The notes beneath the pieces are model-generated. The model had not been told where the DNA came from. It saw nothing but the letters and a program-made list of their open reading frames with translations, and did no database searches. A stretch of DNA of 41,440 nucleotides from Actinomycetota bacterium (GTDB taxonomy: Bacteria > Actinomycetota > Acidimicrobiia > Spongiisociales > UBA5794). The stretch is from assembly GCA_013151445.1 (NCBI GenBank), contig JAADIG010000009.1, positions 1 through 41,440 of the forward strand, written 5' to 3'. Both the position numbers and the translations under genes were made by a program. Shown here piece by piece: positions 22,371-41,440 of the stretch; the stretch's first letter is position 1; each line of letters opens with the position of its first letter.

Positions 22371-24464
22371 TCACTCCTCGGCGGCAGGGAACTCCATGAC
22401 GATATCACCATCGCGGTCGGTGCGATACACCACGGCGTCGGCCTGGGCCAGGGCATCGAGAATCTCGGCTGTCGGGTGGCCAAAGTCGTTCTCTCCGACA
22501 CTGATGACGACCCGGGCACCCGCCGCAGTGTCTCCAAGCCATCCGATATCGGTCGTATTTGATCCGTGGTGGGGAACCAGCATCACGTCGGGGCGCAGAG
22601 GCGGCATTTCTGCCTGTGCGACGGCCCCAATGTCACCGGGCAACAACAGGGTCGATCCCGAGACGGTGACCCACGTCGCCACGGAGCCATCATTCTCTGC
22701 GGCGAACCTGCGTGAGGGTCCCAACACTTGCAGCGAGAACGCCCCGATGGTCAACGATGCCCCGGTGCGAACCTCCTCGACGAGCACACCACGGCGGTTT
22801 GCGACAGCGATCAGTTCGTCCAGGAGAGGAGCGGACGGTTGCAAGGCCGGAACCCAGAGACGATCGACGGAAACGGCACTCATGACCTCGACAAGGGCCG
22901 CCATATGGTCGGCGTCGGCGTGGGTCCCGATCACGAGGTCGATGCGTTTGATGCCTCTGGAACGCAGCGCGGCCTTTGCCACCAGCGGGTCGATCCCACC
23001 GTCAACCAACACCACCTTGCCATCGGGTGATTGCAGCAATGTCGCATCGCCCTGGCCAACATCGAGAAACGTGACCGTCGGTGCCACCGGTGGACTCGCG
23101 GCCCGCGTGATGACAGCCACGGCAACGAGGATCGTCACCGCAACCACCCACCCGACGCGCTTTGAGAACAATGCCCATGAGATCGCCGCGACTCCGACCA
23201 CACCGGCCACAGAAAGCTGTGGCCATTCGGCCGCAAAGTCAGCCAGCCAGATAACCAGCTCCGCCCCGCGGGAACCTGCATCAACAAGAAGACCGGAACC
23301 GACAACGGCCCCAATCGCTCCGACGATCGTCGAAAAGGCGATGACAGGGGCAGCAACAACGTTCACAAATGGGCTCATGAGCGGGACCGCACCGAACCGC
23401 CACAGCAGGATGGGCATCACCGCGCTCTGTGCGGCAACACTCACCGCCAGGGACCGCCACAGCCACTGTGGCGAGCGACCCGGCCATAATCTCCCCGAAA
23501 GCAAAATCCCCGCGGTTGCTGCCACGGATAACTGGAAACCGACATTGTTAGCAAGGTCGGGAGCAACGATGAGAGAAACGATCACTGCTAGTGATAGTGC
23601 CCTCGCCCCATCCATCGGGATGCCGACAACACGGCCCGCAAGCACCAGCGACACCATGATCGCTGCACGAATAACCGACGGTTCCCACCGGGTAGCGAGC
23701 ACAAAGGCCCACACCCCGACGATACCCAGCAGGTGGCGAAGATCGGGCCGGAGTCTCAGAACCCCGGCAAGGGCCCATATCCCAGCAAGGAAGAGTGCGA
23801 CATTGCTCCCGGAAACCGCAACCGCATGGGTGAGGCCACTGCGTTTCATGTCATCGAGGACCTTCTCGGAGACCTGCGAAGTATCTCCTGTGAGAAACCC
23901 GAGTAGCAGACCTGACCCGGGACGGCTCGAGGCGGTCACCACTCCACCGACGCGTGCGCGGATCTTGTTCCCGATGGCAAACCACGGACGCGGCGGGCCG
24001 AGAATCTGGACATCGCGCGACCGCAGCGTCGTCGTGATGGTCCGCCCCGCCACCCAGCGCGAACGTACAGTCGTGACGCCTCGCACCGCCACGTCCGCAT
24101 CGACCTGAGGAACTGCGCCCGAGACCACAAACATGACTGGACCGCTCCAAGGTTGGGTTACTCCATTCCGTTCGAGAGAAATGGGGCGCAGGAGGAATCC
24201 TCGCTGCGGAGTGGTCGTATCTTGGATGACGGTGCCACGAACGACCCCGATGCCATCCCAAGTCGCGTTCCTGGCCGCTTCGGTCCGCTGCCCCGACCCG
24301 ATACCGGCGAGTATCCCAACGAAGCAGACAAGCGCGATCGTGCGATGCCGAGTCATGGCCAGTAGCACCACAGCTGCGACAGCTAGTCCGAGAACTACCA
24401 CTCCCCCAGCCAACCCACTGGCGGCCCCGAACCACACCCCTACAGCACCCGCAGCGAACTCCAC
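22371..24464 (-). CDS. comEC: ComEC/Rec2 DNA-uptake channel
   Basis: Membrane channel that passes single-stranded DNA into the cytoplasm during natural transformation. The roughly 697-residue protein has an N-terminal DUF4131-like membrane region, the Competence domain (GLLLGFLTGDTSQVSEKVLD, GLTHAVAVSGSNVALFLAG), several TM helices, and a C-terminal metallo-beta-lactamase-like domain (FLDVGQGDATLLQSPDGK, LVDGG, THADADHMA, LVPHHGSNTTD) that may degrade the non-transferred strand. GTG 24464 is chosen, 14 bases after the comEA stop; a TTG just upstream is possible. All three usual ComEC modules are present, so DNA uptake is plausible if a pseudopilus exists elsewhere. Confidence 0.93.
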   Translation of the reverse strand: MEFAAGAVGVWFGAASGLAGGVVVLGLAVAAVVLLAMTRHRTIALVCFVGILAGIGSGQRTEAARNATWDGIGVVRGTVIQDTTTPQRGFLLRPISLERNGVTQPWSGPVMFVVSGAVPQVDADVAVRGVTTVRSRWVAGRTITTTLRSRDVQILGPPRPWFAIGNKIRARVGGVVTASSRPGSGLLLGFLTGDTSQVSEKVLDDMKRSGLTHAVAVSGSNVALFLAGIWALAGVLRLRPDLRHLLGIVGVWAFVLATRWEPSVIRAAIMVSLVLAGRVVGIPMDGARALSLAVIVSLIVAPDLANNVGFQLSVAATAGILLSGRLWPGRSPQWLWRSLAVSVAAQSAVMPILLWRFGAVPLMSPFVNVVAAPVIAFSTIVGAIGAVVGSGLLVDAGSRGAELVIWLADFAAEWPQLSVAGVVGVAAISWALFSKRVGWVVAVTILVAVAVITRAASPPVAPTVTFLDVGQGDATLLQSPDGKVVLVDGGIDPLVAKAALRSRGIKRIDLVIGTHADADHMAALVEVMSAVSVDRLWVPALQPSAPLLDELIAVANRRGVLVEEVRTGASLTIGAFSLQVLGPSRRFAAENDGSVATWVTVSGSTLLLPGDIGAVAQAEMPPLRPDVMLVPHHGSNTTDIGWLGDTAAGARVVISVGENDFGHPTAEILDALAQADAVVYRTDRDGDIVMEFPAAEE

Positions 24465-39995: not shown

Positions 39996-41057
39996 TTATC
40001 GGCCGGTACGTGTGAGATGAAGATCGACGGCACGGTGATACACCGCAATGTATTCGTCGACCATCCGGCTGACGTCGAACCGAGCGACAACTGACGCACG
40101 CACCGCGGCCCGTTCCACGTCTCGTGCGCTGCCGACGGCCACGACCGCCTCGGTGATGGAGTGCACCAGGAATCCGTTCTCACCCTCTCTGATCAACTCG
40201 GGCATGGATCCCCGGCGGTGCGCGATCACCGGTGTACCGCACGCCATCGCCTCGACGACGCTGAAGCCGAACGGTTCATCAAAGTTGATGAGATGCAGCA
40301 GAGCCAGGGCACCGCCGAGCAAACCTCCACGCACGTCCGGACCGACCGGTCCGAGAAAGGTGACACGCTCACCGTCGATGTGGGGTTTCACCTGGGCATC
40401 AAAGTAGTCCTGGTCCTGGACGATCCCGGCGATTATGAGAGGGATATTGGCGCTCTCAGCGACCGCAATGGCCTCGGCGGTGCCCTTATCGGGATGGATC
40501 CGACCAAAGAACAACAGGTAGTCACCGGGTTTTGACTGCTCGGTGAACGCCCGCATATCGATGCCGTGGTGAATCGTCGCGATGTAGTCGAGGCTCTGAT
40601 GCCGGTCGGCGTCGCTGATCGCAACGTAGTAGCCACGATCGTTGTACTTCGCATACACCGGAACGATCCGCTCGGATGAGAATCCATGAATCGTGGTGAC
40701 TACCGGCGTGTCGACCAGACCGCTGTACGTGAGGGGTAGGAAATCGAAGCTGTTGTGGATAACGTCGAACTCGTCTGCCCGTTCAAAAACCGCCGAAATG
40801 TGGAGACTCTCCCAGACCTTGGCGTCCACGGTGGGATCTTCGGAGTACCCAGTCGGTGCGGTCCCAACTAGGTGGGCCCTTGTCACAGAATCGGCCGTGG
40901 CGAAGAGGGTTACGTCTATTCCGCGGGCAACCAGACCTTCGGTGAGGAGGGAAACGAACTGTTCCCACGGTCCGTAGTGACGAGGTGGCACCCGCCACGA
41001 AATGGGGGCGAGCATTGCCACACGAAGCTGACCGGAAGCGGAACCCGAAGACGACAT
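39996..41057 (-). CDS. GT4-family glycosyltransferase
   Basis: A 353-residue GT-B glycosyltransferase. The N-terminal domain starts RVAMLAPISWRVPPRHYGPW with the loop that binds sugar nucleotide acceptors, followed by GLVARGIDVTLFAT and FDVIHNSFDFLPLTY. The C-terminal domain has YLLFFGRIHPDKGTAEAIAV, FLGPVGPD and the EX7E region INFDEPFGFSVVEAMACGTP, then IAHRRGSMPELI. ATG 41057 is the start that matches the domain; the longer open frame to 41261 is in the repeat region. It converges on the GH130 gene, 39 bases apart, and its 5' side is the hairpin/repeat region, so its promoter should lie there. Confidence 0.9.
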   Translation of the reverse strand: MSSSGSASGQLRVAMLAPISWRVPPRHYGPWEQFVSLLTEGLVARGIDVTLFATADSVTRAHLVGTAPTGYSEDPTVDAKVWESLHISAVFERADEFDVIHNSFDFLPLTYSGLVDTPVVTTIHGFSSERIVPVYAKYNDRGYYVAISDADRHQSLDYIATIHHGIDMRAFTEQSKPGDYLLFFGRIHPDKGTAEAIAVAESANIPLIIAGIVQDQDYFDAQVKPHIDGERVTFLGPVGPDVRGGLLGGALALLHLINFDEPFGFSVVEAMACGTPVIAHRRGSMPELIREGENGFLVHSITEAVVAVGSARDVERAAVRASVVARFDVSRMVDEYIAVYHRAVDLHLTRTGR

Positions 41058-41079
41058 CAGAACCAGCCTACAAGGCATC

Positions 41080-41242
41080 GACCACGAAGTGTCGATACAA
41101 GGAAGTGACCCGTCGCCGACGAAAAGGAGGCGAAAGGGACACGCGGAGTCGCCCAGGAACGGAGTCTTCGACGTTCCCGGCGAACTCCCAAGGAACACCG
41201 GAGGTGTTCCCACCGCACACGACGGGCGACACGGAAAACCAG
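41080..41242. repeat. Hairpin-rich non-coding spacer beside the terminal tandem repeats
   Basis: No coding frame is convincing here. Inverted repeats follow one another: ATCGACCAC-GAA-GTGTCGAT with one bulge (41080-41100), GGAACG...CGTTCC around 41158-41177 with a TTC loop inside, and a perfect GGAACACC-GGA-GGTGTTCC (41192-41210). The loops repeat the GAA/TTC theme of the adjacent 95-bp units, so this may be an older, decayed part of the same array. Confidence 0.55.
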
Positions 41243-41440
41243 AACCGGCGAGCACCACCAAGTTTGCGAAACAAACTCGAGTCAGGGCTTTGCCCGAAGG
41301 GCGAAACCGACGTGGAGCTGACGGGATCTAAGCCTGAAACCGGCGAGCACCACCGAGTTTGCGAAGCAAACTCGAGTTAGGGCTTCGCCCGAAGGGCGAA
41401 ACCGACGTGGAGCTGACGGGATCTAAGCCTGAAACCGGCG
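41243..41440. repeat. 95-bp tandem repeat, two copies plus the start of a third
   Basis: Unit 1 (41243-41337) and unit 2 (41338-41432) differ at 4 positions; a third begins at 41433 and leaves the window. Each unit holds two hairpins. In unit 2 they are GAGTTTGC-GAA-GCAAACTC (41355-41373) and TTCGCCC-GAA-GGGCGAA (41384-41400). Three of the four differences fall on stem positions where unit 2 pairs perfectly and unit 1 does not. No long open frame spans it. Confidence 0.85.

Follow-up and report, generated by a model that had tools for sequence, protein, structure and literature searches.

The window, a stretch of 41,440 nucleotides, is the complete contig C151 of the Actinomycetota genome G000, and it ends in a tandem repeat close to the start of a GT4 glycosyltransferase gene (Table 1). 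The repeat occupies positions 41243 to 41440 (TRF: period 95, 2.1 copies, 96% match), and the period is a sharp peak, with 113 of 145 matches at 95 against at most 48 at other periods. The first-pass annotation had described two full 95-bp units and the beginning of a third, a description that holds. The two full units differ at 4 of 95 positions. Elsewhere in the window, TRF reports a weak 21-bp tandem repeat of 1.9 copies at 22400-22441.

Table 1. Features of the array and its border in the window
Feature	Positions	Strand	Description	Basis
GT4 glycosyltransferase gene	39996-41057	-	Likely ATG 3 bp beyond T-loop boundary; island border	ORF list, sequence
Distal array part	41060-41144	-	Homologous to first unit behind tRNA-Ala(GGC) of sister species G002	Alignment
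Further triloop hairpin	41192-41210	-	tRNA-flank hairpin family	
95-bp unit 1	41243-41337	-	More diverged copy, distal from tRNA	TRF, unit comparison
Hairpin 2, unit 1	41259-41279	-	Weakened stem	Unit comparison
Hairpin 1, unit 1	41286-41308	-	One mismatched pair	Unit comparison
Second decayed tRNA-Ala 3' end	41312-41341	-	Same lesion; pattern match 41312-41334	Sequence
95-bp unit 2	41338-41432	-		TRF, folding
Hairpin 2, unit 2	41354-41374	-	9-bp stem, UUC loop on minus strand	Fold
Hairpin 1, unit 2	41381-41403	-	10-bp stem, UUC loop on minus strand	Fold
Decayed tRNA-Ala 3' end	41407-41436	-	T arm and acceptor 3' strand; pattern match 41407-41429, 3 mismatches	Sequence
Third unit, first 8 bp	41433-41440	-	Array goes on into contig C36	TRF, contig overlap
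Unit differences (unit 1/unit 2)	41260/41355; 41271/41366; 41283/41378; 41291/41386		A/G; A/G; C/T; T/C	

The sense strand of the array is the minus strand, that is, the strand on which the array lies downstream of a tRNA. On this strand each 95-bp unit carries GGTTTCAGGCTTAGATCCCGTCAGCTCCAC, a decayed version of the tRNA-Ala end GGTTCAAATCCCCTCAGCTCCAC, together with two UUC-loop hairpins. The 95-bp repeat is thus a tandem array of worn tRNA-Ala gene ends and paired hairpins situated just behind a tRNA-Ala gene. The decayed 3' end in each unit was overlooked in the first-pass annotation and is the key to the identity of the array. All of the decayed ends carry one common lesion, suggesting that the unit decayed first and was then duplicated locally in tandem; the 95-bp copies most likely arose later than the decay, by slippage or unequal recombination.

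Unit 2 had been described as the better-paired version, and it does fold to lower energies than unit 1 on both strands (as RNA, -39.3 versus -30.7 kcal/mol on the plus strand and -43.0 versus -35.6 kcal/mol on the minus strand). Compared with shuffled sequences, unit 2 gives z values of -5.0 (DNA, plus), -4.7 (RNA, minus) and -3.2 (RNA, plus). The GAA loops noted previously are present on the plus strand, but because the sense strand is the minus strand any transcript would carry UUC loops. The earlier argument that the fold matters because three of the four differences lie in stems is a weak one: the four differences are real, but only one unit has diverged. Covariation in the stems, across very few sequences, amounts to one compensatory pair (L007, behind tRNA-Val of a sister species), which argues weakly for conservation of the fold. 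The GCGAAGC mini-hairpin proposed as a functional core is without independent support and is lost both in unit 1 and in the C21 copy.

The 95-bp unit is present at three contig places in G000 (C151, the end of C36, and C21). All three are linked to tRNA-Ala, and the unit lies downstream of a tRNA-Ala gene in C36 (GGC) and in C21 (CGC). The ends of C151 and C36 share an exact 56-bp overlap in consistent orientation that reaches into unit 2, so the two contigs are very likely neighbors across a collapsed repeat, and the array does belong to a larger one beyond the right edge, as had been suspected. Joining the contigs in the shortest way yields a minimum of three hairpin modules. In C36 the 3' end of tRNA-Ala(GGC) recurs as an exact copy downstream of the gene, at a 162-bp period, and the 95-bp units lie directly beyond it. 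Plasmid records contain no match for the unit. Just past the Ala-CGC array in C21 (L005), a few hundred bases on, a small ORF was judged by eye to resemble a ribbon-helix-helix antitoxin. In the window, the distal part of the array is homologous to G002 precisely as far as GGTTC, which is the T-loop boundary, and beyond this point the sequence runs into the start of the GT4 gene. The border of the carbohydrate island, at which the array had already been placed, is thus the border of a tRNA-anchored array.

The arrangement behind tRNA-Ala recurs at other tRNAs. The 46 tRNA predictions of G000 were checked for duplicates of their ends. In the fetched loci, eight tRNA genes (Ala-CGC, Ala-GGC, Ile, Leu-TAG, Leu-TAA, Pro-CGG, Ser-CGA and Val-CAC) had a downstream copy, exact or near-exact, of their own segment from the T-loop to position 73. 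The Leu-TAA copy has one mismatch, and Leu-TAG is followed by two near-identical tandem units, the last copy being slightly decayed. The copies follow their own tRNA even at the single base that separates two Ala tRNAs, and in Ala-GGC of genome G001 the T-loop TTCGAAT occurs in tRNA and copy alike. The tRNA-to-copy period is 161-166 bp, or 214 and 236 bp where triloop hairpins have been added, and it is 161-162 bp at five tRNAs (Ala-GGC, Leu-TAG, Pro, Ser and Val), one of which is strongly diverged. On its left side the duplicated block is bounded by GG/TTC in every case, while the right boundary varies from position 73 in Arg to 1-3 bp past the tRNA in others and 12 bp in G002 Ala. No downstream copies of tRNA 5' ends or anticodon regions were found among the three species of the genus. 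Most tRNAs have no unit and presence varies between sister species, but the mini-elements at Ile and Ala-GGC are common to all three. Apparent copies at Ser-GGA, and the only upstream signals, are attributable to neighboring tRNA-Ser genes, and Ser-GGA was left out of the count. In another genus of the family (G009, L124, 4838-5360), three units of about 150 bp lie in tandem behind tRNA-Val, and the 3' end of that tRNA-Val closes each of them.

The segments between tRNA and copy are a homologous family of gene-less inserts of about 138 bp and near-constant size. In this genus each mini-element, about 160 bp in all, lies directly behind a tRNA gene and joins a conserved arm of about 138 bp to the 3' end of that tRNA, from the T-loop to position 73. 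The arm contains the blocks GGGTCTCCCCG, CTACCCGTCTCTGG and CGCGTCTCTGGT, an inverted repeat TTCGAGTCCCT..CGGGCCTCGAA, three repeated GTCTC blocks and the junction TAGG/TTCAAATCC; its ends are not inverted repeats of each other and its 5' 10 bp or so are not conserved. Within the inverted repeat there is no two-sided change among the first 8 arms and there are a few when 23 sequences are aligned. A covariance model of the arm found 13 good copies in G000, four in G001, four in G002 and a small number in two further families of the order, and a sequence-only model run on a 395-genome sample of the class matched in G000-G002, G039 and G115 only. G009 and G063 have short divergent units with the same junction, which come after tRNA-Val and other tRNA ends. 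Phage records contain no match for the element and viral contigs none for the pattern; a Nocardioides match from a genome-collection scan was dismissed as chance, lying in an apparent metalloprotease gene with no tRNA nearby. Arms can also flank genes. On the reverse strand of contig C64 of G000 (L118, 9053 bp), a decayed tRNA-fMet is accompanied by five arm copies and copies of the fMet 3' end, and the segments between arms carry an ECF-type sigma factor with DUF6596, a YCII protein, a Gp49/HigB-like and HTH pair and a second putative HTH pair. C64 is reminiscent of a small, tRNA-anchored cassette array, and in G039 the same arms likewise flank gene-bearing segments.

Comparison of species provides an occupied and an empty site. 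In G002 tRNA-Arg(CCG) carries an insert with a period of 156 bp, the duplication ending exactly at position 73, whereas in G000 the site is cleanly empty: the tRNA runs directly into GAACCTCGCTTCGCTCGGTTCGTT, which in G002 comes after the copy. This pair is precise, and gain, excision or deletion would all fit it. The order of units can be read at Leu-TAG, where in G002 the start of the distal unit alone lies directly behind the tRNA and in G000 a further unit lies between the tRNA and the distal-unit sequence, indicating that the extra unit adjoins the tRNA. Leu-TAA was considered as a second empty site against G001 and rejected, the homology being too weak (score 28; best of 300 shuffles 27). 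At tRNA-Ile in G001 (contig C42), a fragment running from the anticodon loop onward is followed by hairpins and a decayed mini-element; this has the look of an anticodon-loop island's far end, the island having displaced the old unit from the working tRNA.

Hairpins of the kind seen in the array appear to form a lineage-specific family associated with tRNA 3' flanks. Perfect hairpins with a stem of at least 8 bp and a loop of 3-4 nt, counted over the 400 bp behind tRNAs, have a density of 2.3 per kb in G000 and G002, compared with 0.3-0.4 upstream and 0.15 inside the window, which in G000 is an excess of about 8-fold over the upstream side, although some flanks are common to neighboring tRNAs and the counts are not independent. 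In G001 the density behind tRNAs is 0.1 per kb. Paired triloop hairpins of the form GGAACGCC-NNN-GGCGTTCC and others occur in tRNA 3' flanks of G000 and G002 (e.g. L044, L025 and L255). Perfect palindromes of 50-56 bp lie directly behind Ser-CGA and Pro-CGG copies (L057, about 1204-1263; L032, about 1750-1809), and a related 46-bp palindrome (TGGCGTCCA..) lies behind tRNA-Asp, tRNA-Glu and tRNA-Phe in G002.

The preferred reading, which has about an even chance of being correct, takes the array in the window for the worn tail, amplified in tandem, of an insertion site that is anchored behind tRNA-Ala(GGC) and built from mini-elements recombined at the T-loop. It builds on the anatomy of the array, the self-matching copies at eight tRNAs, the homology of the arms, the one occupied/empty pair and the link between window and tRNA-Ala, each of which was observed. 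The elements would recombine site-specifically in the 7-bp T-loop (TTCRANT), much as the mycobacteriophage Ms6 does, using a tyrosine recombinase supplied in trans. An element would carry a tRNA 3' end that is rebuilt on each insertion, and the inverted repeat and three GTCTC blocks of the arm would serve as recombinase-binding sites. The 95-bp array most likely grew afterwards from a decayed unit by local tandem duplication. A crossover in the T-loop predicts a constant GG/TTC left edge and a variable right edge, and the boundaries seen support it. Against T-loop recombination, a 160-bp circle would be stiff, and movement from one tRNA to another would bring the wrong 3' end, so that the exact self-match needs gene conversion or other insertion chemistry; the empty Arg site could also reflect excision or deletion.

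The mini-elements neither contain nor adjoin a recombinase gene, and no recombinase linked to the T-loop was found in G000. The genome has six PF00589 matches: those in C128 and C3 have the look of XerC/XerD-type housekeeping genes, judged from their sequences, that in C91 adjoins tRNA-Thr, and those in C97, C155 and C112 are broken or partial. A separate tyrosine-integrase family came to light between two fMet sites in G039; matches to it occur in 72 of the order's 138 genomes, with a tRNA adjacent in most of the fetched loci. Members include L119 (G039 contig C24, 1405-2233, minus) and L183-L212, and the neighboring tRNAs include fMet, Arg, Asn, Lys, Thr, Val, Ala, Phe and others. This family was rejected as the mobilizer, since the duplication starts at the anticodon loop in both islands with a readable far end (n=2); it suits the displaced fMet and Ile sites and not the mini-elements.

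Other explanations account for parts of the pattern. A transposase- or casposase-like enzyme inserting at tRNA 3' ends, with a target-site duplication of about 23 bp and the 138-bp arm as a MITE-like element, would account for the identity of each copy with its own tRNA, also where Ala tRNAs are one base apart, and for the Arg duplication stopping exactly at position 73. Such insertion is unlikely, given that the right boundary is not fixed and that the arm has neither mutually inverted ends nor a conserved 5' end. Quite unlikely too is a host RNA feature, in which a trailer co-transcribed with the tRNA would yield rtT-like small RNAs or a tRNA-processing or termination structure and mobility would be secondary. 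E. coli rtT/RttR shows the same arrangement, the hairpins are strong, the inverted repeat is kept with a few two-sided changes, and the Ile and Ala-GGC mini-elements are common to the three species of the genus; yet most tRNAs lack a unit, presence differs among sister species and the first 8 arms aligned contain no pair changed on both sides.

Mini-elements could also be scars of ordinary tRNA-targeting islands that lost their genes by deletion and left both ends. The abundance of tyrosine integrases at tRNA genes of the order and the gene-bearing segments flanked by the same arms in C64 and G039 are in keeping with this, but independent deletions would not yield 161-162 bp at five tRNAs, one of them strongly diverged, which makes scars improbable. 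A model without mobile elements, in which each tRNA locus changes purely by replication slippage or unequal recombination, suits the single lesion of the 95-bp array and the near-identical Leu-TAG pair but leaves the homologous 138-bp arms behind different tRNAs and the Arg insertion unexplained. As the whole explanation it is highly improbable, being contradicted for the arms and viable only for the 95-bp copies.

The mini-elements might represent a minimal class of mobile DNA: gene-less, about 160 bp, mobilized in trans, inserting at the near-universal T-loops of many tRNAs, rebuilding the tRNAs' own 3' ends and stacking beside the tRNA into arrays, with E. coli rtT as a relic of this kind. 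This broader proposal is tentative. The pattern poses the puzzle of how one arm family gains many different tRNA ends. It also explains why assemblies break at such sites and how tRNA fragments mislead annotation. No description of such elements was found in the open-licence literature. tRNA genes are classic landing sites of mobile DNA, where elements are usually of kilobase size and specific to one or a few tRNAs.

Several known repeat types were considered. The array shares pairs of short palindromes with small loops with REP/BIME sequences, and the first-pass annotation had offered a REP/BIME-like mobile repeat. REP/BIME sequences are dispersed over many intergenic loci, whereas the 95-bp unit is confined to three, all tied to tRNA-Ala, and this assignment was rejected for want of dispersal in G000. 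A CRISPR was rejected because the CRISPR-DR58 match scored 17.1 bits against a cut-off of 38 and the intervening segments are mutually homologous, and an integron attC site by inspection, the junction TAGGTTCAAATCC being GTTCAAA and not R' GTTRRRY (R'' RYYYAAC). Apart from tRNAs, matches to known RNA families in Rfam were all sub-threshold.

Larger tRNA-targeting systems offer parallels. In integrative elements that target tRNAs, a 3' tRNA fragment, serving as attR, marks the far end (PMC9897764, PMC4383910), as here at fMet, Ile, Asn and Glu, but those elements are kilobase islands (9-23 kb in the archaeal set of PMC9897764) and the inserts of G000 are about 160 bp. Ms6, also from Actinobacteria, has a 26-bp core, AGGGGTTCGAATCCCCTTAGCTCCAC, an identity block of attP and attB that extends from the T stem to the end of tRNA-Ala, and the T-loop is its probable strand-exchange site (PMC1762012). 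Nearly the same block is duplicated in G000, and G002 and G000 provide a precise pair of occupied and empty sites. As a complete phage, Ms6 brings its own integrase and is linked to a single tRNA family, whereas the G000 units are gene-less, adjoin many tRNAs and have no integrase found with them.

The closest known arrangement is that of the rtT repeats at tyrV of E. coli. The same kind of test applied to E. coli K-12 re-detected the tyrV-tpr (rtT/RttR) repeats, with three copies of the tRNA-Tyr end at a 178-bp period. At tyrT/tyrV-tpr, as in G000, tandem units lie directly behind the tRNA and each ends in a copy of that tRNA's 3' end beginning inside the T-loop. Transcription of RttR is known in E. 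coli from annotation. One locus was checked in E. coli; new here are the spread over at least eight tRNAs, the common arm, the match of each copy to its own tRNA's end and the occupied/empty pair. The pattern offers a testable origin for the long-known rtT repeats.
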